Part shown: one piece after another, positions 6,013 through 37,893 of the stretch | How the letters are laid out: every line of letters starts with the position of its first letter | Position numbering within the stretch: position 1 is the first letter of the stretch | Origin: Acidobacteriota bacterium | Lineage (GTDB): Bacteria > Acidobacteriota > Thermoanaerobaculia > UBA5066 > Gp7-AA6 | DNA: 44,670 nucleotides | Direction: 5' to 3' | Assembly: GCA_027307335.1 (NCBI GenBank) | Contig: DAHUXD010000007.1 | Span: 1 to 44,670, forward strand | The notes under the pieces: model-generated | What the model saw: only the letters and a program-made list of their open reading frames with translations | Databases searched by the model: none | Told to the model about the DNA's origin: nothing | Position numbers and translations under genes: made by a program

Positions 6013-6292
6013 CTGAAGTCCGGCTTAAGTTTCGGTACCTGAGTCGCTTGCGCGTGTGGAAAAGACCCCGTCGTCATTTTGGCGCCGCACGATTTCTGCA
6101 CATCGGCTTGGGCACGCCGGGTAAATTGCTGATTACAGGAAGCTTCCGGCATCGCACAGAGGATGGTGCAATCCGACCCGGAGGCGTCGGTTTCGGCCTT
6201 TTTTTGGGGCTTTCCGCAGTGATTTCGACAGGCTTTTCCGCCGAATCTTCGGAAAACTGAGTTTCGTCAAGCGGGCGCGAACTTCGGGCGCT
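6013..6292. other. Gene-free, AT-richer spacer with several inverted repeats
   Basis: This 280-base spacer between the mutase and endonuclease III is visibly less GC-rich than its neighbours. It holds a perfect palindrome GGAAGCTTCC at 6138-6147. CCGAC/GTCGG (6173-6177 with 6186-6190) is followed by seven Ts at 6199-6205, a possible weak terminator for the mutase. TTTTCCG/CGGAAAA pairs 6234-6240 with 6250-6256. A 70-codon plus-strand frame at 6048-6260 has no ribosome site or recognisable protein and is not called. Confidence 0.5.
6173..6205 (+). terminator. Possible weak terminator after the mutase gene
   Basis: A 5-bp stem (CCGAC with GTCGG, 8-base loop) is followed, 8 bases later, by seven Ts. 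The stem is short and the T-run is displaced, so this is tentative. Confidence 0.3.
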
Positions 6293-18081: not shown

Positions 18082-18111
18082 CTTCACGCTCCCTTCACGC
18101 CGGCTTCACGC
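18082..18111 (+). promoter_or_regulatory. Putative PHO box, three identical units
   Basis: CTTCACG occurs three times at 18082, 18093 and 18104, exactly 11 bases apart. In fact 8 bases (CTTCACGC) are identical in each unit. The 7+4 geometry is that of PhoB/PhoP direct-repeat boxes. It lies in the divergent space between the CHAD-like gene and ppx, 35 bases before ppx. No convincing -10 was found at the usual distance. Confidence 0.7.
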
Positions 18112-18145
18112 CGTTCCGACCGATGCGGGGCAAACTCGGCCCGGC

Positions 18146-19744
18146 ATGAAGTCCCTCGCGGCCATCGACATCGGCACCAACTCGATCAAGCTCCTCGTGG
18201 CGAATGTCGAGGAAGACGGTGCCCTAAACGTCGTCCTGCGCGAGAAGTCGATGGTCCGCCTCGGCAGCGAGACGCTGCGGACGGGCCGGATGTCGCCGGA
18301 GGCGATCGAGGCAGGGGCCTCGACCGTCGAGCACCTGGCCCGTCTCGCGTCGAGCTCGGGGGCAGAGGTCGTCCGGACCGTCGCGACGTGCGCCGTCCGC
18401 GAGGCGGCCAACTCGGACGAGTTTGTGGCCGCGGTCAAGAAGCGCACGGGCCTCCGGGTGGACGTCATCTCGGGCGAGGAAGAGGCCCGGCTCATCAATC
18501 TGGCCATCCGGAGCGAGTTCCCGGCGTCGAACGACCCGCTCTTCATGATCGACATCGGCGGGGGGTCGACCGAGCTCGTCGTGTCGAGCGGAGCGCGCGT
18601 GCTCCTGACCGAGAGCCTGCCGATCGGCGTCGTCCGACTGTCCGACCGCCTCGGCAAGAACGACCCGCCCTCGGAGAACGACCTCCGCGAGATGAAGCGG
18701 GCGATCCGAGCCGCCGCCCGGCGGGCCGCGCAGTCCGTGCGGAAGAAGGGCTTCAAGACCTGCGTGGGCTCGTCGGGGACGATTCAGTCCCTCTCGCTCG
18801 TGCACGAGGCGGCGGTCCTGGGCCGCGAGCCGAACCCGACGGGCCACCGCACCCTCACGCGAGCGGGGCTCAAGAAAGTCAACCGTTTGCTGCGCCGGAC
18901 TACAGAGAAGGAAAAGCTGCGCCTCCCCGGCCTCGACCCCCGGCGCCGCGACATCGCTGTGCCGGGCGGACTCCTCCTCGCTTGGATCCTGAAGCGCGCG
19001 GGCGCGGAGGCGATCGTCGTGGGCGAGCGGGGTCTCCGCGAGGGACTGCTGCTCGACTACGTCGCCCGGCATGGCGAGGTCCGCCTGCCGGTCAACCGCG
19101 ACATTCGCGCCCGGAGCGTCGACCGCCTCCTCCGGCGCGGCAACGCCGAGGTGCTCCACGCGGCCCACGTCGCGCGCCTCACGCTCGAGATCTTCGACCA
19201 GACGCACGCCCTCCATCAGCTGACGGCGACCGAGCGCGAGTGGCTCCAGTACGGCGCGCTCCTCCACGATATCGGGTGCTACATCGGCTACGCGAAGCAC
19301 CAGCGCCACTCCTACTACCTGATCACCCACGGGGACCTGACGGGCTTCTCGGCCGACGAGATCGAGGTCATGGCCTCGCTCGCGCGCTACCACAAGGGCG
19401 GCCGGCCGAAGAAGACCCACGAGAACTGGCGTCGCCTCGATCCCTACCTCCAAGCGGTCGTCGAGAAGCTCGCCGGGATCCTTCGCATCGCGGACGGTCT
19501 CGACCAGAGCCACCGCCAGATCGTCACCGCCGTCTCCTGCAAGCTGCGAGCACGTCGCCTCGAAATTACGGCGAGCGCACGCGCGGACTGTGAGGCGGAG
19601 CTCGACGGCGCCCGCAAGAAAGGCGATCTCTTCGAGCGCGTGTTCGACAGGGGGCTCTCGATCAAGGCTGTCGCGATCGGCTCCGGCGAGGCCGTGCACC
19701 AGAAGGATCTCGAGATATTGTCGGCCGATGCCCTCTGGAACTGA
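18146..19744 (+). CDS. ppx: Exopolyphosphatase / pppGpp phosphatase
   Basis: A 532-residue Ppx/GppA protein that removes terminal phosphate from polyphosphate or pppGpp. The ASKHA fold is visible: phosphate-1 motif AAIDIGTNSIKLLVA (residue 5 on), LISGEEEARL-like VISGEEEARL, phosphate-2 motif FMIDIGGGSTELVV, and CVGSSGTIQSL. A C-terminal HD-like domain (about 320-500) carries LLHDIGCYIGYAKHQRHSYYLI. The long form with an HD domain resembles E. coli Ppx rather than short Ppx. PhoU follows 24 bases later and a three-unit PHO box lies upstream, so it is likely Pho-controlled. Ppx versus GppA cannot be told from sequence alone; the context favours polyphosphate. Confidence 0.9.
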   Translation: MKSLAAIDIGTNSIKLLVANVEEDGALNVVLREKSMVRLGSETLRTGRMSPEAIEAGASTVEHLARLASSSGAEVVRTVATCAVREAANSDEFVAAVKKRTGLRVDVISGEEEARLINLAIRSEFPASNDPLFMIDIGGGSTELVVSSGARVLLTESLPIGVVRLSDRLGKNDPPSENDLREMKRAIRAAARRAAQSVRKKGFKTCVGSSGTIQSLSLVHEAAVLGREPNPTGHRTLTRAGLKKVNRLLRRTTEKEKLRLPGLDPRRRDIAVPGGLLLAWILKRAGAEAIVVGERGLREGLLLDYVARHGEVRLPVNRDIRARSVDRLLRRGNAEVLHAAHVARLTLEIFDQTHALHQLTATEREWLQYGALLHDIGCYIGYAKHQRHSYYLITHGDLTGFSADEIEVMASLARYHKGGRPKKTHENWRRLDPYLQAVVEKLAGILRIADGLDQSHRQIVTAVSCKLRARRLEITASARADCEAELDGARKKGDLFERVFDRGLSIKAVAIGSGEAVHQKDLEILSADALWN

Positions 19745-19768: not shown

Positions 19769-20440
19769 ATGAAGGAACATTTTTCGGAGCAGCTCGAGGA
19801 CCTCCGCCGGCAGCTCATTCTGATGGGCGGGGAGGTCGAGCGTCAGATCCATCGCGCGATCGAGTCGCTCACCGAGATGGACGCCGAGAAGGCGCGCGCA
19901 GTCATCGCCGCCGACGAGGAGATCGACCGCATGGAGATGGGGATCGAAGAGGGGGCCATCTCGCTGCTCGCCCTGCAGCAGCCCGTCGCCGTGGACCTGC
20001 GATTCCTTGTCGCCGTCCTCAAGATCAACTCGGACCTCGAGCGCATCGGCGATCACGCCGTCAACATCGCCGAGGGCGCCGAGCGGCTGGCCGGGCAGCG
20101 GCCGTTCAAGCCCTTCATCGACATCCCGTACATGGCCGACGTCGCCATGTCGATGCTCAAGCAGTCGCTCGACGCCTTCGTCAATCGCGACGCCGACCTC
20201 GCGCGCCGCGTCATCAAGAAGGACGACATCCTGGACGAGAAGAACGTCTCGATCATCCGGGAGCTCCTGACGTACATCGCCGAGTACCCCGCGCTGACGA
20301 CCTACTGCATCGAGCTCATCTCGATCTCGAAGAACCTCGAGCGGGTCGGGGACCTCGCGACCAACATCTGCGAGGACACGATCTTCATCGCCGAGGCGCG
20401 CTGGGTGAAGCACCACGCGACCGAAATCGGGAGGCCGTAG
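19769..20440 (+). CDS. phoU: Phosphate signalling protein PhoU
   Basis: A 223-residue all-helical protein made of two PhoU three-helix repeats. The metal-binding acidic motifs are visible in each repeat: SDLERIGDHAVNIAEGAE in the first and KNLERVGDLATNICED in the second. PhoU couples the Pst transporter to the PhoR kinase and keeps the Pho regulon off when phosphate is plentiful. AGGAGA lies about 7 bases before the ATG. Unusually, it sits behind ppx and about 10 kb from the pst operon, not at the end of pst. Confidence 0.95.
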   Translation: MKEHFSEQLEDLRRQLILMGGEVERQIHRAIESLTEMDAEKARAVIAADEEIDRMEMGIEEGAISLLALQQPVAVDLRFLVAVLKINSDLERIGDHAVNIAEGAERLAGQRPFKPFIDIPYMADVAMSMLKQSLDAFVNRDADLARRVIKKDDILDEKNVSIIRELLTYIAEYPALTTYCIELISISKNLERVGDLATNICEDTIFIAEARWVKHHATEIGRP

Positions 20441-23105: not shown

Positions 23106-23134
23106 CTTCACGCGGTCCTTACCCCGGTTTTCCG
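23106..23134 (+). promoter_or_regulatory. Possible PHO box before the PHP-GT21 operon
   Basis: Units CTTCACG (23106), CCTTACC (23117) and TTTTCCG (23128) are spaced by 11 bases. The first is identical to the ppx-box unit; the other two match it at four of seven bases each. It lies 61 bases before the PHP gene. No clear -10 was found. Confidence 0.4.
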
Positions 23135-29583: not shown

Positions 29584-29696
29584 TTTACGCGAAACTTACA
29601 TTCCGCCGCTCGCGCCTTCACGGCACGACGTCACCCTTCGACGCACTGCGTCTCGCGTCCCTTCCTTCCGCCCCGAGCGATCGGGGCCCTTTTTTT
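29584..29696 (+). ncRNA. Candidate small RNA ending at an orphan terminator
   Basis: No gene on this strand ends before the terminator at 29671-29696; the nearest plus-strand gene stops 1.2 kb upstream, behind an opposing gene. PHO-like units TTTACGC (29584) and CTTACAT (29595) are 11 bases apart and could drive a short transcript of roughly 60-100 bases. No -10 was identified, so the start is unknown. The span given covers the possible promoter and transcript. Confidence 0.3.
29671..29696 (+). terminator. Intrinsic terminator without an obvious gene
   Basis: CCCCGA/TCGGGG (6-bp stem, loop GCGA) is followed by CCC and seven Ts at 29690-29696. It shields the porin promoter from upstream transcription, or ends a small RNA. 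Confidence 0.7.
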
Positions 29697-29717: not shown

Positions 29718-29772
29718 ATTCACGAACAGTTGACCGGACCTTCTAACCGTCTTTACGTGGCAAACCTACGGT
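29718..29772 (+). promoter_or_regulatory. Putative four-unit PHO box and -10 of the porin gene
   Basis: Units ATTCACG (29718), GTTGACC (29729), CTTCTAA (29740) and CTTTACG (29751) are each exactly 11 bases apart. Nine bases after the last unit, TACGGT (29767-29772) fits a TANNNT -10, the spacing known for PhoB-activated promoters. The leader would be about 55 bases, ending in GGAGGAG before the ATG. Confidence 0.7.
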
Positions 29773-29832
29773 TGCCCCGCCAACCCCTTTTGAGACAGGC
29801 GAACCGAAACAGTTTGATTCGGAGGAGAGGCG

Positions 29833-31398
29833 ATGAAGAGACTGGCGATACTGGCACTCGCGCTCGCGCTCGTCGCGGGCAACGCATTCGCGCAGGATGC
29901 GTCCGGCTCCGGCAAGGATCCAGCGCCCACCCCGGCTCAGCTCGAGGAGATGAAGCGTGCGCTCGCGGCTCAGCAGGAGCAGCTCGAGAAACTGAAGAAA
30001 GAGGCGGCGGAACGCGACAAGGCGCTTCAGGAGATGCAGAAGCAGGTCGAGGAACAGCAGAAGCAGGTCCAGGACCAGCTGAAGCAGACCGAGGCCGCAG
30101 CCAAGCAGACCGAGGCGGCCGCGAAGCAGACCGAGGCGGCCGCGAATGCGGCGGCGCAGGCGGCCGAGGCGGCGAAGGCCAACCAGTTCCAGGGGCCGGC
30201 CGACCAGAATCTCGAGAAGCCGGGCGTCTACCAGGCATCCCTGAACAAGTCGCTCGCGGCGCTGCTGCAGCAGCCGAACCCCAACACCCAGCTGGTGACG
30301 CCGCCGTGGGCGGTGCTGAAGATCGCCGACAACGTGGTCTTCCGCTTCGGCTCCGTCATCCAGCCGACGTACGAGGCGCTCCAGGACCCCAACAGCGCCG
30401 GGTACTCGCAGAACTTCTACCTGCGGCGCGCCCGGTTCAACGTCACGGCCAACCTTCCCGAGAACGTCACCGTCTTCTTCCAGACCGACGATCCGCGCGT
30501 CGGATACTCGGGCACCACCGGCCAGAAGAACATCAACTCGGGCTTCCTGGTCCAGGACGCCTACGCGCAGTGGAATTTCCTGGGCCACGCGATGGCGCTC
30601 CAGGGCGGTGAATTCCTCGTCCCGCAAAACCGTCAGGTGCTGACGAGCGTTGCCACGTTCCTCGCGCTCGACCTCCCGACCTGGTCGCAGCAGGAGGGCA
30701 CGATCCTCGAGTGGAACGGCGGCCGGGACTACGGCGTGGGATTGAACGGCGCGCTCCTCAACGATCACCTGACCTACCGCACCGGCGTCTTCGAGGGCTA
30801 CCGCGCTCCGACGTCTCCGCAGGAGCCGCCCCTCGGCCCGGCCGCCGGTGCCCGGAACTCGCTCATGTTCGCCGGCCGCGTCCAGTACGACGTGTTCGAC
30901 ACGGAGTACGTGTACGCCTACCCGGGCACCAACCTCGGCAAGAAGAAGATGCTCGCGTTCGCCGGCTGGTACCAGGCCCAGAACTCCTACAAGGGCTACG
31001 GCGGCGACGTGTTCTTCGACTGGCCGGTTCTCCAGGGCGACGCGGTCACGGTCGAGGGCGACTACATGCACTTCGACGGCCACCGGGAGGTCTTCAACGA
31101 CAACGGAACGAACAACACGCTTCCCGAGCAGTACACGGTGTACACGAACGCCGGCTACTACTTCTGCCAGCTGAAGCTCCAGCCGTTCGTCCGCTACGAG
31201 TTCCTCCACTACACCGACGACGTCGTCAATCTGGCCAAGGGACAGCAGCGCGTGGGCGGTGGCTTCAACTATTACGTCTACGGGCAGAACTTCAAGATCG
31301 TCCCCTACTACGAGCGCATCCTCCCGAAGTCGCAGCCGGTGACGGCGCAGCTCAAGGACTTCAACCGGTTCGTCCTGGAGCTCCAGGGCTCCTTCTAG
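29833..31398 (+). CDS. Phosphate-type (OprP/OprO-like) outer-membrane porin
   Basis: A 521-residue exported protein. Signal peptide at 1-21 (cleaved after NAFA). Residues 30-115 form a Gln/Lys/Glu/Ala-rich coiled coil. The rest is a beta-barrel of amphipathic strands (LRRARFNVTANLPENVTVFFQTDD, YDVFDTEYVYAYPG) ending in FVLELQGSF, whose terminal Phe is the outer-membrane assembly signal. OprP-like porins let phosphate cross the outer membrane. Within the coiled coil, a 7-residue unit (KQTEAAA) is repeated three times, encoded by 21-base repeats. GGAGGAG lies just before the ATG. A PHO box upstream and a terminator downstream make it a single-gene unit ahead of pst. Confidence 0.82.
   Translation: MKRLAILALALALVAGNAFAQDASGSGKDPAPTPAQLEEMKRALAAQQEQLEKLKKEAAERDKALQEMQKQVEEQQKQVQDQLKQTEAAAKQTEAAAKQTEAAANAAAQAAEAAKANQFQGPADQNLEKPGVYQASLNKSLAALLQQPNPNTQLVTPPWAVLKIADNVVFRFGSVIQPTYEALQDPNSAGYSQNFYLRRARFNVTANLPENVTVFFQTDDPRVGYSGTTGQKNINSGFLVQDAYAQWNFLGHAMALQGGEFLVPQNRQVLTSVATFLALDLPTWSQQEGTILEWNGGRDYGVGLNGALLNDHLTYRTGVFEGYRAPTSPQEPPLGPAAGARNSLMFAGRVQYDVFDTEYVYAYPGTNLGKKKMLAFAGWYQAQNSYKGYGGDVFFDWPVLQGDAVTVEGDYMHFDGHREVFNDNGTNNTLPEQYTVYTNAGYYFCQLKLQPFVRYEFLHYTDDVVNLAKGQQRVGGGFNYYVYGQNFKIVPYYERILPKSQPVTAQLKDFNRFVLELQGSF
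30082..30144 (+). repeat. Three 21-base tandem repeats in the porin coiled coil
   Basis: Units at 30082-30102, 30103-30123 and 30124-30144 each encode K-Q-T-E-A-A-A. They differ only at synonymous positions; the second and third are identical. Such in-frame heptad units can expand or contract without shifting the frame. Confidence 0.85.
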
Positions 31399-31415: not shown

Positions 31416-31455
31416 GGGCGGCGAGGGCCGGACCTTCGCCGCCCTTTGCTTTTTT
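31416..31455 (+). terminator. Rho-independent terminator after the porin
   Basis: GGGCGGCGA (31416-31424) pairs perfectly with TCGCCGCCC (31436-31444), and the stem extends inward by about three more pairs. A T-rich tail (TTTGCTTTTTT) follows. It separates the porin from the pst promoter. Confidence 0.9.
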
Positions 31456-31485
31456 CGGAAGCCGGTCCCGATCGGGCGGGTGCGT

Positions 31486-31514
31486 TTTAACAGCAGTTTC
31501 ACGGGGACTTAACG
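31486..31514 (+). promoter_or_regulatory. Putative PHO box of the pst operon
   Basis: TTTAACA (31486), TTTCACG (31497) and CTTAACG (31508) are exactly 11 bases apart. They lie 36 bases before pstS, where a PHO box is expected. No good -10 could be picked out downstream. Confidence 0.75.
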
Positions 31515-31550
31515 CGCGAACTTCATCTTCCCGGGCCGGAGGAGAGAGGC

Positions 31551-32573
31551 ATGAAGTCGACGAAGGTCTTCCTCGCACTCGGGCTCGGCCTGCTCGCGGC
31601 GCTCGCCGCGACCGGTCAGACCACGCCGATCAACGGGGCCGGCGCGACGTTTCCGTACCCGATCTACTCGAAGTGGTTTTCCGAGTACAACAAGCTGCAC
31701 CCCGAGGTCGAGATCAACTACCAGTCGATCGGCTCGGGCGGCGGCATCCGCCAGATGACGGAGCAGACCGTTTTCTTCGGCGCGACGGACGGGCCGATGA
31801 ACGAGGAGCAGATCAAGAAGGCGCCCGGACCGATCCTGCATCTGCCGACGGTGCTCGGCGCGGTCGTCCCCGTGTACAACATCCCGGGGGTCGACGCGTC
31901 CCTGAAGTTCTCCGGCAAGCTCCTCGCCGACATCATCCTCGGCAAGGTCTCGAAGTGGAACGACGCGGCGATCACGGCCGCAAACCCGGGCGTCAAGCTC
32001 CCGGCGGCCGACATCGTCGTCGTGCACCGGTCCGACGGATCCGGCACGACGTACATCTTCGTCGATTACCTTTCGAAGGTCTCGCCCGAGTTCAAGGAGA
32101 AGGTCGGCGTCAACACCTCGGTGAACTGGCCCGTGGGCGTCGGCGGCAAGGGCAACGAGGGCGTCGCCGGTCTCGTCAAGCAGACGCCGGGCGCCATCGG
32201 CTACGTCGAGCTGATCTACGCCCTCCAGAACAAGATCTCGTTCGGCTCGGTGCAGAACGCCGGCGGAGAGTTCATCGTGGCCTCGCTCGACTCGGTGACC
32301 GCCGCCGCGGCCGGAGCGGCGAAGTCGATGCCCTCGGACTTCCGCGTCTCGATCACGAACGCCCCCGGAAAGGGCGTCTATCCCATTTCCTCGTTCACCT
32401 GGCTGCTCTTCTACGAGAACCCGACCGACAAGCCGAGGGCGAAAATCATGGTGGACTTCATGAAGTGGGCGCTGACCGAGGGACAGAAGTACTGCAAGGA
32501 CCTCGGCTACGCGCCCCTGCCGAAGGAAGTCGTGGCGCTCGAGACCGAAGCCCTCAAGCGCATCAAGCTGTAA
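31551..32573 (+). CDS. pstS: Phosphate ABC transporter, periplasmic binding protein
   Basis: A 340-residue periplasmic phosphate-binding protein. A signal peptide (1-22) precedes INGAGATFPYPIYSKWFSEYN, the classic PstS start with the phosphate-contacting backbone. IGSGGGIRQMTEQTVFFGATDGPM and VHRSDGSGTTYIFVDYLS supply the remaining phosphate ligands (Ser, Asp, Arg, Ser, Gly, Thr). GYVELIYALQNK and a C-terminal CKDLGYAPLP are also typical. There is no lipobox. GGAGGAGAG precedes the ATG. It is the first gene of pstSCAB-phoBR. Confidence 0.97.
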   Translation: MKSTKVFLALGLGLLAALAATGQTTPINGAGATFPYPIYSKWFSEYNKLHPEVEINYQSIGSGGGIRQMTEQTVFFGATDGPMNEEQIKKAPGPILHLPTVLGAVVPVYNIPGVDASLKFSGKLLADIILGKVSKWNDAAITAANPGVKLPAADIVVVHRSDGSGTTYIFVDYLSKVSPEFKEKVGVNTSVNWPVGVGGKGNEGVAGLVKQTPGAIGYVELIYALQNKISFGSVQNAGGEFIVASLDSVTAAAAGAAKSMPSDFRVSITNAPGKGVYPISSFTWLLFYENPTDKPRAKIMVDFMKWALTEGQKYCKDLGYAPLPKEVVALETEALKRIKL

Positions 32574-32586
32574 TCGGAAGGCGAGC

Positions 32587-33567
32587 ATGAAATCCCCGTC
32601 CTCTCGCCGGAGCGCCGACGACCGCGGCTTCCGCCTGGGGACGGGGTTCTTCGCGCTGCTCGTCGTGCTGCTCGTCGCGGGCATCTTCTGGGAGCTCTAC
32701 CGGACGTCGCAGCTCTCGCTCGCGAAGTTCGGGTTCCGGTTCTGGACCGGAAAGACGTGGGACCCGGTGTCGGGCGAGTTCGGGGCCCTGCCGTTCATCT
32801 GGGGAACGCTCTACTCGTCGATCCTCGCGATGCTGATCTCGACCCCGATCGCCCTCGGCATCGCGATCTACCTCTCCGAGCTCTCGCCGCGGCGTCTCCG
32901 GACCCCGCTGGCGTTTCTGACGGAGCTGCTCGCCGCGGTGCCGTCGATCGTGTACGGGCTGTGGGGCGTCTTCGTCCTCGTGCCGATCGTGCGGAAGCTC
33001 CAGGTCGTCACTCCGGACTGGCTGAAGAAGGTGCCTCTGTTCTCGGGGCCGCCGCTCGGCGTGGGCATGGGCGCGGCGGCGCTGATCCTCGCCGTCATGG
33101 TGATTCCTTTTACATCCTCCGTCGCGCGCGAGGTCCTGAAGGCCGTGCCCGCGTCGCAGCGCGAGGCCGCCTACGCGCTCGGCGCCACGCGCTGGGAGGC
33201 GATCCGGGCGGCGCTCCGCTTCGGCCGCACCGGCATCATCGGCGCGGTCATCCTCGGATTCGGCCGCGCGGTCGGCGAGACGATGGCCGTGACGATGGTC
33301 ATCGGCAACAATCCGCAGATCAAGGCATCCCTGTTCGCGCCCCAGTACACGATGGCAGCGGTCATCGCGAACGAGTTCACCGAAGCGGCCGACGATCTGT
33401 ATCTGTCCGCTCTGATCGAGATCGGCCTCGTGCTGTTCGTGATCACGGTGTTCATCAACGCGATCTCGCGGCTCCTGATCTGGAGCGTGACGCGCGAGGT
33501 CAAGGCGCAGGTGCCGAAGCCCACCGCGACGGTGGCGTTCGCCGCCCCGACCGGAGGCGGGCAGTGA
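32587..33567 (+). CDS. pstC: Phosphate ABC transporter permease PstC
   Basis: A 326-residue inner-membrane permease with six predicted membrane helices. The ABC-interaction (EAA) loop reads [25 protein letters not shown]. The N-terminal part has [23 protein letters not shown] and, later, IPIVYGLWG-like [15 protein letters not shown], both characteristic of PstC. It starts 13 bases after pstS and overlaps pstA by 4 bases. It forms the transmembrane pore with PstA. Confidence 0.96.
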
Positions 33568-34412
33568 ACAGGACGCGCCGCCGCAAGGCTTTCTCCGGCA
33601 TCGTCGTCTTCCTGTGCGGCGCCGCCGTCTTCCTCGCGCTCATCCCGCTCTTCTTCGTCTTCGGATACGTCATCGAGAAAGGCTTCTCGTCCCTGAGCTG
33701 GGACTTCTTCACCCGGATGCCGAAGCCCGTCGGCGAGCCGGGCGGCGGCATGGCGAACGCGATGGTCGGGACCGTGTACCTCATCGTCATCGCCGGCGCC
33801 TTCGCCGTGCCGGTCGGCGTGATCGCGGGCGTTTACTTGACCGAGTACGGCAAGAAGACGTTCGGCTCGCTCGTGCGGTTCACGGCCGACGTCTTGAACG
33901 GCGTGCCGTCGATCGTCATCGGCATCTTCGCGTACGGCCTCGCGGTCCTGCCGGTCAAGCACTTCTCGGCGCTCGCCGGCGGCCTCGCGCTCGGCTTCAT
34001 GATGATCCCGATCATCACGCGGACGACCGAGGAGCTCCTGAACCTCGTGCCGGGAACCCTGCGCGAGGGCGCGCTGGCGCTCGGCGCCACGCGGGCCCGG
34101 GCGGCGTTCTCGGTCATGGTGCCCGCGGCGCTGCCCGGGATCATGACCGGCGTCCTCGTCGCGCTCGCTCGGATCGCGGGCGAGACGGCGCCCCTTCTCT
34201 TCACCGCCTTCAACAACCGGTATTTCTCGACGAGCCTCGTCCAGCCGATCTCGTCGCTGCCGGTCCAGATCTACACGTACGCCGTCTCGCCCTACGAGGA
34301 CTGGCACCGGCAGGCCTGGGCCGGGGCGCTCGTGCTCGTCGGATTCGTGTTCGTCTTCTCCGTTCTGGCCCGGGTGGTCACGCGGCGGCTCGAGCGGATG
34401 CACCGCGCATGA
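33564..34412 (+). CDS. pstA: Phosphate ABC transporter permease PstA
   Basis: A 282-residue inner-membrane permease. It has an N-terminal membrane helix, the periplasmic loop [22 protein letters not shown], and the EAA loop [24 protein letters not shown]. The C-terminal part has [17 protein letters not shown], typical of PstA. The start is GTG at 33564, overlapping the pstC stop (GTGA); no in-frame ATG fits better. The stop overlaps the ATG of pstB by 4 bases (ATGA). Confidence 0.96.
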
Positions 34413-35263
34413 GCGAAACGGTGGTGAGCGAAATGGAGACATCGGCGGGAGGTCCGGCGCCCGGGGCGGAGCCGACGAGCGCGGCGGCCGTGTCGTCGTT
34501 GGCGGGACGGAAGATCCGGATGGAGTCGAAGAGGCTCAACTTCCACTATGGCCCGAAGCAGGCGCTCTGGGACATCTCGCTGCAGATCCCGGAGAAGACG
34601 GTGACTGCCTTCATCGGGCCGTCGGGCTGCGGCAAGTCGACGTTCCTGCGCTGCCTCAACCGGATGAACGACATCATCCCGGACACGCGCGTCGAGGGCG
34701 ACGTGCTCCTCGACGGCAACGACATCTACGGTCCGGGCACCGACATCGTCGACCTGCGCCGCCGGGTCGGCATGGTCTTTCAGAAGTCGAACCCGTTCCC
34801 GAAGTCGATCTTCGAGAACGTCGCCTACGGTCTGAAGATCAACGGCCTCGCGTCCCGGGGGGAGATGCCCGAGAGGGTCGAGAAGGCGCTCCGCCGCGCG
34901 GCGCTCTGGGACGAGGTGAAGGACCGCCTCGACGCCTCGGCGATGGGCCTCTCCGGGGGCCAGCAACAGCGCCTCTGCATCGCGCGGGCGGTGGCGGTCG
35001 AGCCGGAGGTCCTCCTCATGGACGAGCCGTGCTCGGCGCTCGACCCGATCGCGACGGGCAAGGTGGAAGAGCTGATCCACGAGCTGCAGCGCGAGTTCAC
35101 GATCGTGATCGTCACCCACAACATGCAGCAGGCGGCGCGCGTCTCCGAGTTCACGGCGTTTTTCATGCTGGGCCGGCTGGTCGAGCACGACCGGACCGAG
35201 AAGCTGTTCACGAACCCGGGCCAGAAGATCACCGAGGACTACATCACGGGCCGTTTTGGTTAG
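34409..35263 (+). CDS. pstB: Phosphate ABC transporter ATPase PstB
   Basis: A 284-residue ATPase that powers PstCA. Walker A is GPSGCGKST, the Q-loop [19 protein letters not shown], the signature LSGGQQQRL, Walker [14 protein letters not shown] and the switch His in VTHNMQQA. Before residue 35 there is an Ala/Ser/Pro-rich extension longer than in E. coli PstB, so a later start is possible. ATG 34409 is kept because it overlaps the pstA stop as ATGA. The gene ends 16 bases before phoB. Confidence 0.97.
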
Positions 35264-35279
35264 AAGGAGCGGGGGCAAA

Positions 35280-36035
35280 ATGAAAGCCGTGGCGACCAGG
35301 GGAAAGGACGGGGCGGCGCGGGGCGAGGCCCACACGGGCGCGATGAAGCGCATCGCGCTCATCGAGGACGACGCCGACATCGCCTACACGATCCGACTGA
35401 ACCTGCGGAAGGAGAAGCGCTACCAGGTCGAGCACTACATCTCCGGTCTCGCGGCGCTCGCCGCCGTGCAGGAGAAGCCGTTCGACCTCGTCATCCTCGA
35501 CCTGAATCTGCCCGACATCGACGGGCTCGCGCTCTGCCGGGAGCTCCGGCGCGCCGACGAGACGCGCAAGGTCCCGATCATCATGCTCACCGCGCGCGTC
35601 GAGGAGCGCGACAAGCTGCTCGGCTTCGAGATCGGCGCGGACGACTACATCACCAAGCCCTTCTCGATGCGCGAGCTGCTCGCGCGGGTGAACGCGCACC
35701 TGCGCCGGGTCGCGGCCTTCGAGACGTCGGAGGAGGAGATCTTCCGCGACGGCGAGCTCGTCGTCGACCGCGCGCGGTTCGAGGTCACGCTGCAGGGAGC
35801 GCGCGTGCACCTGACGAAGAAGGAATTCGACCTGCTCTGGCTCCTGATCCGGAACCGGAACCGTGTCGTGACGCGCGACGCGATCCTCGCCCGGCTCTGG
35901 GACTACGACGCCGACGTCGAGACGCGGACGGTCGACGTCCACATTCGCGCCCTCCGGCGCAAGCTCGGCGACGCGCGCATCGAAACGGTCGTCGGCCTCG
36001 GATATCGCTACCGCGAGGCGGCGCCGGCGAAGTAG
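35280..36035 (+). CDS. phoB: Phosphate regulon response regulator PhoB
   Basis: A 251-residue OmpR-family response regulator. The receiver domain has the acidic pair EDD, phosphoacceptor Asp74 in LVILDLNLPDIDG, Thr in IIMLTAR and Lys in ITKPF. The C-terminal winged helix (about 155-250) ends in RALRRKLGDARIETVVGLGYRYR. ATG 35280 has a strong AAGGAG 9 bases upstream. An internal ATG at 35343 would give a protein with the phosphoacceptor at position 53, as in E. coli PhoB, so the 21-residue extension may be unused. It is expected to bind the 11-base PHO repeats seen in the window. Confidence 0.92.
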   Translation: MKAVATRGKDGAARGEAHTGAMKRIALIEDDADIAYTIRLNLRKEKRYQVEHYISGLAALAAVQEKPFDLVILDLNLPDIDGLALCRELRRADETRKVPIIMLTARVEERDKLLGFEIGADDYITKPFSMRELLARVNAHLRRVAAFETSEEEIFRDGELVVDRARFEVTLQGARVHLTKKEFDLLWLLIRNRNRVVTRDAILARLWDYDADVETRTVDVHIRALRRKLGDARIETVVGLGYRYREAAPAK

Positions 36036-36080: not shown

Positions 36081-37811
36081 ATGAGGCTCCGCGCCCGATT
36101 CACCTTCCTGTTCGCCGCGCTCGCGGCGCTCGCAGGAATCTTCCTCGTGGCCGTCTCGGACGCGACGCTCCGCCGCGCCGTCCACGATCGCGTCGCCGAG
36201 CGCTTTCGCCGCGAGCTCGAGCACCTGACCTCCGACCTCGCCCGCGTGCCGCTCGACGCCGAGAGCCTCGACGCGTTCCTGCGCCGGTCGGCCGCGGAGC
36301 TCGAGTGCCGCATCACCGACATCGGCCCCGACGGGCGCGTCCGCCACGACACCGACCTGCTGCCGGCGGACGTGCCCGCGATGGAGAACCACGCGCGGCG
36401 CCCGGAGGTCGTCGAGGCGCTCGCGAACGGTATCGGGTCGTCGCAGCGGACCTCGCCGACCGAACAGAAGCCCATGCTCTACGTCGCGCGGCGGCTGCCG
36501 GACGGCGGCGTGTTGCGCCTCGCGATTGCCCAGGCGCGCCTGCAGCAGGTGGAGCTCGGTTATCTCTGGACCATGAGGGCGGCGACGTTCGCGGTCTGCC
36601 TGCTGCTCTTCCTGATCGGCGCCAGCGCTTCGCGCCGCTTCTCCGAGCCCGTCGCCGAGCTGACGCGCGCGGCCTCGGCGGTCGCCGCGGGCGACTTCGC
36701 CCGCGACCTGCCGACCGCCGGCGGCGAGGAGGTGCAGCTGCTCGGCGCCGCGATGCAGCGGATGAAGGGGGCGCTCAACCAGGCGGTCCAGCGCGCGGAG
36801 TCGGAGAGACGGTTGACCGCGATGGTCTTCGAGCGCCTGCCGGACGGGCTCGTCGTCGTCGACGCGAAGCTGCGAGTGCTCGAGGCGAACGGCCGGTTCG
36901 CCGAGATGACAGGGATTCCGGCGCCGGCCGGCCGCGGGATCTACGAGGTCCTCCGCGAGCGGCCCCTCCACGACTGCTTCGAGGCGACGGTGCACACCGG
37001 CGAGCACACCGAGAAGACAGTGCGTCTTCCCGACGATCGCGTGTGGCAGATCGCGGTCGCCCCGCTGCCCGACGCGCACCGCGCGGCGGCCGTCGGCGTC
37101 CTGCGCGACGTCACGCGGATCGAGCGGACGGAGGCGATGCGCCGCACCTTCGTGGCGGACGTGTCCCACGAGCTGCGCACGCCGATCGCCTCGATCGCCG
37201 CGGCGGCCGAGACGCTCGCCGACAGCGAGCCGGACCGCGCCGAGAGCGCCGAGCTGCTCGGCCTGATCCGTCGCCAGTCGGACCGGATGCGCGAGCTCAT
37301 CGACGACCTCATGGACCTCGCGCAGATCGAGAGCGGCGCCGTGCCGCTCGTGCGCGAGGCGATCCCCCTGCGCGAGCTGCTCGCGGAGGTGGCCGAGGAC
37401 CTCGAGCCGGCGGCGAGGGAATGCGGCGTTTCGGTGCGCGTCCAGGGGGATGACGCGATCACGGCGATGGGCGACCGGCGGCGCGTCGGCCAGCTCGCGC
37501 GCAACCTGCTGGACAACGCGATCAAGTTCTCGCCGCGCGGCGCGCCGGTCGTGGTGCGCGTCTTCCGGCAATCCGGCCGGACCGGCTTCTCCGTCGAGGA
37601 CCTCGGCCCGGGCATTCCGAAGTCCGAGCGCGACAAGATCTTCCAGCGCTTCTATCAGGTGGACCGCTCCCGCTCGAAGATGCGCCCGGGCTCGGGACTG
37701 GGCCTCGCGATCGTCAAGCACATCGCGCAGCTCCACGGGGCCGTCGTCGACGTCGAGGGCGAGGCGGGCGAGGGCTCGACGTTCCGGGTCAGCTTCCCGG
37801 CGGCCGCTTAG
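36081..37811 (+). CDS. phoR: Phosphate regulon sensor histidine kinase PhoR
   Basis: A 576-residue membrane sensor kinase. Two membrane segments (about 8-26 and 162-182) flank a periplasmic region of about 135 residues, larger than in E. coli PhoR. HAMP (185-235), PAS (about 245-345), HisKA with His363 in FVADVSHELRTPIAS, and HATPase with NLLDNAIKFS, LGPGIPKSE and GSGLGLAIVKHI follow in order. The large periplasmic part and gene order resemble the PhoR/WalK type of Gram-positives and Acidobacteriota. It lies 45 bases after phoB and should phosphorylate it when phosphate is low, with PhoU as the inhibitor. Confidence 0.9.
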   Translation: MRLRARFTFLFAALAALAGIFLVAVSDATLRRAVHDRVAERFRRELEHLTSDLARVPLDAESLDAFLRRSAAELECRITDIGPDGRVRHDTDLLPADVPAMENHARRPEVVEALANGIGSSQRTSPTEQKPMLYVARRLPDGGVLRLAIAQARLQQVELGYLWTMRAATFAVCLLLFLIGASASRRFSEPVAELTRAASAVAAGDFARDLPTAGGEEVQLLGAAMQRMKGALNQAVQRAESERRLTAMVFERLPDGLVVVDAKLRVLEANGRFAEMTGIPAPAGRGIYEVLRERPLHDCFEATVHTGEHTEKTVRLPDDRVWQIAVAPLPDAHRAAAVGVLRDVTRIERTEAMRRTFVADVSHELRTPIASIAAAAETLADSEPDRAESAELLGLIRRQSDRMRELIDDLMDLAQIESGAVPLVREAIPLRELLAEVAEDLEPAARECGVSVRVQGDDAITAMGDRRRVGQLARNLLDNAIKFSPRGAPVVVRVFRQSGRTGFSVEDLGPGIPKSERDKIFQRFYQVDRSRSKMRPGSGLGLAIVKHIAQLHGAVVDVEGEAGEGSTFRVSFPAAA

Positions 37812-37862
37812 GGTCCGCGGCGGGAGAACGCCGCGACGACCTGAAGCGCGCGCGAAGATGCG

Positions 37863-37893
37863 CGTCAAGACCGCCTGAAGTCTGGGATAGGAT
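37863..37893 (+). promoter_or_regulatory. Possible promoter of the DUF47-pit pair
   Basis: TAGGAT (37888-37893) fits a TANNNT -10 and precedes the ATG by 21 bases. Upstream, CGTCAAG (37863) and CCTGAAG (37874) are 11 bases apart. Read on the minus strand they become CTTCAGG and CTTGACG, PHO-like but in reversed orientation, so the assignment is weak. Confidence 0.35.

Follow-up and report, generated by a model that had tools for sequence, protein, structure and literature searches.

A PHO-box-type array as predicted phosphate-starvation promoter of an ExtI-like porin gene in a member of the Acidobacteriota

Introduction

In the PHO box of Escherichia coli the activator replaces the −35 element in front of a weak −10 element, and the core binding region of Bacillus subtilis PhoP consists of four TT-AC repeats about 11 bases apart, like the array described here, with a less rigid repeat spacing. 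OprP and OprO of Pseudomonas are phosphate porins, and their role would likewise be filled by an outer-membrane porin that is phosphate-inducible. In general, PHO boxes are composed of direct repeats of 11 bases, seven of which are better conserved in every unit, and are bound head to tail; the unit of S. coelicolor is GTTCACC (PMC4415409).

Acidobacteriota are abundant soil bacteria that are often short of phosphate. A description of a PHO box for Acidobacteriota was not found in the titles and abstracts of open papers, which is weak evidence that the acidobacterial PHO box is undescribed. An earlier note on the DNA analysed here had claimed a PHO box with a correctly placed −10 element before a porin gene, and this reading is supported at the sequence level by genome ranking, sister boxes and conserved geometry.

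Materials and Methods

The window is the whole stretch of DNA that was analysed (44,670 nt) and corresponds to contig C15 of a 4.37-Mb assembly with 65 contigs and a completeness of 96.5%. Genome-wide statistics were obtained by pattern searches, each with a reversed-pattern control. A sequence-only covariance model of 55 columns was built from the pstS promoters of 16 relatives, chiefly from AT-richer genomes. For the distance between array and −10 element, 27 pstS promoters of relatives were chosen by unit score alone and blind to the −10 element. In a second test, 25 promoters of relatives (21 before a porin gene preceding pstS and 4 before pstS) were anchored on their two best adjacent units. 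Terminator-like hairpins were read from the sequence by eye.

Results and Discussion

Array and −10 element in front of the porin gene

The window carries a phosphate cluster comprising ppx, phoU, ppk, a porin gene, pstS, pstC, pstA, pstB and the genes of a PhoB-type regulator, a PhoR/PnpS-type kinase, a DUF47 (PhoU-like) protein and a PHO4-family transporter. Features are on the + strand if not stated differently. The exopolyphosphatase gene ppx (18146..19744; PF02541, E 7e-64) and phoU (19769..20440; PF01895, E 3e-49) lie 5′ of the porin gene (29833..31398, ATG at 29833), which is followed by pstS (31551..32573; TIGR00975, E 3e-121), pstC (32587..33567; TIGR02138, E 2e-88), a putative pstA (33564..34412) assigned by its position, open frame and permease-like translation, and pstB (34409..35263; TIGR00972, E 1e-119, residues 303-549 of a longer open frame). 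The pstS closest to that of the window (83% identical) is found in a metagenome-assembled genome titled Elusimicrobia, a title that is possibly wrong, and there pstC, phoB and phoR follow in the same order (L068).

Four head-to-tail units in exact 11-base steps precede the porin gene, namely ATTCACG (29718..29724), GTTGACC (29729..29735), CTTCTAA (29740..29746) and CTTTACG (29751..29757), and nine bases (TGGCAAACC) separate the last unit from the −10 element TACGGT (29767..29772). All of these coordinates had been given exactly in the earlier note. TTNAC is present in three of the four units, which resemble a known PHO consensus; the third is weak, with TT kept and AC missing. Unit 2 agrees only in part with the YTTCACG-like unit proposed earlier and unit 3 is poor, and the complete YTTCACG occurs only before ppx. 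The consensus was refined to TTNAC.

Just 5′ of the array, a terminator-like hairpin (CCCCGA-gcga-TCGGGG, then CCCTTTTTTT; 29671..29696) would insulate the porin promoter from upstream, and a second one (GGCGGCGA...TCGCCGCC with a T-rich tail; 31417..31456) is located between the porin gene and pstS. As such hairpins lie on both sides, the porin gene would be its own transcription unit. We consider it highly probable that the array and TACGGT together constitute a PHO-box-type phosphate-starvation promoter of this gene.

Regulator and sensor kinase of the phosphate cluster

The PhoB-type response regulator (35256..36035, start codon uncertain) contains Response_reg and Trans_reg_C; its best NCBIfam match is TIGR02154 PhoB with 207 bits, below the cut-off of 296, and its nearest solved structure is RegX3. 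The adjacent sensor kinase (36081..37811) reaches 291 bits with the PnpS and 264 bits with the PhoR model, both below cut-off. A cognate pair of PhoB/PhoP type, a winged-helix response regulator and a kinase, is thus present at scores below the equivalog cut-offs, and its location in the pst cluster favours a Pho role despite these scores. Relatives are indicative of an acidobacterial origin. The recognition helix of the regulator is HIRALRR, compared with HIRSLRR, HIRSLRK or HIRNLRK in near relatives and HVKRLR, HVRRLR or HVGRLR in more distant ones. Such differences could bear on unit specificity.

Direct repeats are bound by many OmpR-family regulators, and the sub-cut-off score of the cluster's PhoB would also fit a real array that is bound by a different member of this family. 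This is very unlikely, however, given that the arrays gather before phosphate genes, that a PhoB-type regulator is encoded within the pst cluster and that the units fit the S. coelicolor PHO consensus.

Sister promoters and genome-wide distribution of arrays

No other PHO box in the genome is as clean as that before ppx-phoU, where three exact CTTCACG units in 11-base steps (18082-18110) are followed by TCCGACC (whole array 18082..18121) and, after nine bases, by CAAACT (18131-18136). The PHO box of pstS reads TTTAACA GCAG TTTCACG GGGA CTTAACG (31486..31514) and is followed after nine bases by CATCTT (31524-31529). A further array of four units with TAATTT nine bases on is located on the − strand of contig C28 (G000:C28:40210-40247, L066) at the gene of a secreted PF04185 phosphoesterase, which is likely a further Pho gene.

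When up to two mismatches were allowed, the genome contained two four-unit TTNAC arrays, one before ppx-phoU and the other before this porin gene (reversed control 0). Allowing a third mismatch raised the number to five (reversed control 1), of which four precede ppx-phoU, the porin gene, pstS and the phosphoesterase gene on C28 and one is within a coding region on C62. For three units, a limit of one mismatch likewise gave two arrays (ppx and pstS; reversed control 0), and a limit of two mismatches gave a modest excess (17 vs 9 in the control), 5 of the 17 lying in the three phosphate promoters of the window. Two-unit matches with up to three mismatches (668, compared with 399 for the reversed pattern) are frequent everywhere and carry zero weight as proof. 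The earlier note had suggested checking whether such arrays are equally common in coding regions. Run computationally, this check left the reading unrefuted and showed that three- and four-unit arrays are enriched at phosphate genes relative to the rest of the genome, with a near-exclusive siting before these genes and almost none elsewhere.

Less likely still is an origin of the porin array by chance, from TT-containing 7-mers that happen to line up in fairly AT-rich intergenic DNA. Scored in its own intergenic region with a relatives-trained matrix, the array has a value that 49 of 5000 Markov sequences also reached (p ~0.01), and two-unit matches abound genome-wide, both of which favour chance; the four-unit ranking in the genome, the two sister boxes in the cluster and a −10 element at the conserved offset speak against it. 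The stand-alone p-value is modest, and the case for a PHO box rests on genome-wide ranking, sister boxes and conserved geometry. Among four-unit arrays in the window, a relatives-only matrix ranks that of pstS first and that of the porin gene second. The covariance model did not report the porin array in its scan of the window and gave zero matches genome-wide.

In relatives of the same order, similar arrays were observed before pstS, a Porin_O_P gene, a PstS-like gene and a phosphodiesterase gene; another four-unit array (L151, G009:C29:933) precedes a CarboxypepD_reg/outer-membrane barrel gene that lacks an obvious link to phosphate. A tandem porin pair lies before pstS in G001 (contig C159; L171 and L174), with an array only at the copy nearer pstS. 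This comparison excludes the porin regions of G004 and G006.

Three further candidates in the window were left uncounted. The AT-rich two-unit array TGTAATC ATTTACC (6109-6157, − strand) points into the 3′ end of a methylmalonyl-CoA mutase gene and is probably due to chance. The array CTTCACG CCTTACC TTTTCCG (23106-23134, + strand), 89 bases 5′ of a PHP-domain gene (23195), has no −10 element at the expected offset. The pairs CTTCAGG/CTTGACG and CTTCGCG/CTTCAGG (37840-37880, − strand) between phoR and the DUF47 gene are on the strand opposite DUF47-pit.

Conserved distance between array and −10 element

Exactly nine bases past the last unit, YANNNT is found in all four phosphate-gene promoters (TACGGT for the porin gene, CAAACT for ppx, CATCTT for pstS and TAATTT for the phosphoesterase gene), compared with 0.7% of window positions; the coding-region array on C62 has AGCGCG there. 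A fixed distance to the −10 element is thus a feature of these arrays. Of the 27 pstS promoters of acidobacterial relatives, 17 have TA nine bases past the last unit, and the other 24 offsets total 21. The two-unit anchor of the second test was obtained in 19 of the 25 promoters (15 of porin genes and 4 of pstS) and not in the remaining 6, which include L086 and L096; the layout is not universal among the porin promoters of relatives. Among the 19, TA is present at offset 31, equal to two more units plus nine bases, in 12, a count that 0 of 2000 shuffles reach at any offset. Because relatives are non-independent evolutionary samples, the counts of 17/27 and 12/19 overstate the number of separate events. 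The −10 placement claimed earlier is thereby independently conserved in relatives. Before the porin genes of L084 and L092, the best-array scan placed the best four-unit array inside or past the start region, and two-unit anchoring on ATTAACC/TGTAACG revealed TATCCT and TATTCT where the −10 element is expected.

The −10 hexamers of the relatives include TACGCT, TATCGT, TACATT and TAGCGT and are close to TACGGT of the window. Their units 1 and 2 are strong, and units 3 and 4 are often CGAAACA or similar, with AC kept and TT lost. The porin array, in which the third unit is the weak one, loosely matches this pattern of degenerate downstream units.

Least likely of all is an ordinary, phosphate-unrelated sigma-70 promoter with TTGACC (29730-29735; 5/6 of the −35 consensus) and TTACGT (29753-29758) at a 17-base spacer, since TTACGT meets only 2/6 of the −10 consensus and both the 11-base phasing and the offset of TACGGT would be left unaccounted for.

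Proposed phosphate-starvation switch

According to the PHO-box reading, the PhoB-type regulator encoded 5.5 kb downstream would, once phosphorylated, occupy the four head-to-tail 11-base units as two dimers. With the last unit nine bases 5′ of a weak −10 element, the activator would occupy the −35 position and offset the missing −35 element by recruiting sigma-70 RNA polymerase, presumably through contact with sigma, and transcription is predicted to start at about position 29779. It is plausible that binding of one PhoB dimer to the strong pair favours that of a second to the weak pair adjoining the polymerase. Phosphate shortage would thus induce the porin gene, and pstS, ppx-phoU and the secreted phosphoesterase gene would respond from sister promoters of the same layout. 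We infer phosphate as the cargo of the porin.

The porin and its apparent change in the pst slot

The porin gene encodes an outer-membrane porin of 521 aa that is ExtI-like and has an apparent signal peptide and a coiled-coil-like N-terminal region. With E 4e-30 and 104.8 bits against NCBIfam porin_ExtI (NF040900; cut-off 150), the protein is, as judged by the profile match, a relative of ExtI and not an equivalog. Pfam Porin_O_P (PF07396) gave no match to it at E 1 and was matched by four of eight aligned members of its family.

Many Acidobacteriota have a porin of 360-390 residues encoded directly 5′ of pstS. Among the pst-linked porins scanned, Porin_O_P was clear in L148, just above cut-off in L085 and just below it in L069. 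A profile comparison of the window-porin family with the pst-linked porins was weak (probability 32%, E 5e-4). A profile of 16 pst-linked porins found matches in G001, which belongs to the same family, and in G004 and G006 of the same order; it had no match in this genome, at its completeness of 96.5%, nor in G002, where pstS likewise went undetected. For the close homologues of the window porin that were retrieved from relatives, the flanking sequence inspected (about 1.5 kb) was free of pstS. In L058, phoU, a very distant match to the window porin and a PstS-like gene stand in a row, and a three-unit array (CTTTACG CTTTACT GTTCATG, at 821) is present between phoU and the porin gene. When the porin or either of the two porin profiles was searched against PDB sequences, nothing credible was returned, and an AlphaFold2 model from the single porin sequence had a mean pLDDT of 39 and was set aside.

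Since the pst-slot porin of the relatives was not found here and an ExtI-like porin is in place, it appears that the porin changed under a Pho promoter that was either retained or regained. The wider proposal is a fixed Pho layout shared among Acidobacteriota (two strong units, then two that are often degenerate, nine bases and TANNNT), under which the ExtI-type porin of this lineage replaced a Porin_O_P-type porin beside pstS. It is put forward tentatively, as somewhat more apt to be wrong than right. The layout may serve as a search pattern for phosphate regulons of Acidobacteriota, and the ExtI-type porin becomes a candidate phosphate channel.

Comparison with known PHO boxes and phosphate porins

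The array has the same 11-base head-to-tail repeat layout as the PHO box of E. coli PhoB, but the E. coli unit is CTGTCAT instead of TTNAC. The S. coelicolor PhoP unit GTTCACC is nearly identical to ATTCACG and CTTCACG of the window; the number of units varies in S. coelicolor arrays as it does here, although the phylum differs. Compared with OprP, OprO and Porin_O_P, the window porin is nearest to the Geobacter ExtI model and has a coiled-coil-like N-terminal region. Taken together, the predicted porin promoter is a well-supported added case of a known type of switch and ordinary in kind; what it would add to the described systems is a searchable promoter layout common to Acidobacteriota, together with a possible case of porin change under a promoter that is conserved.
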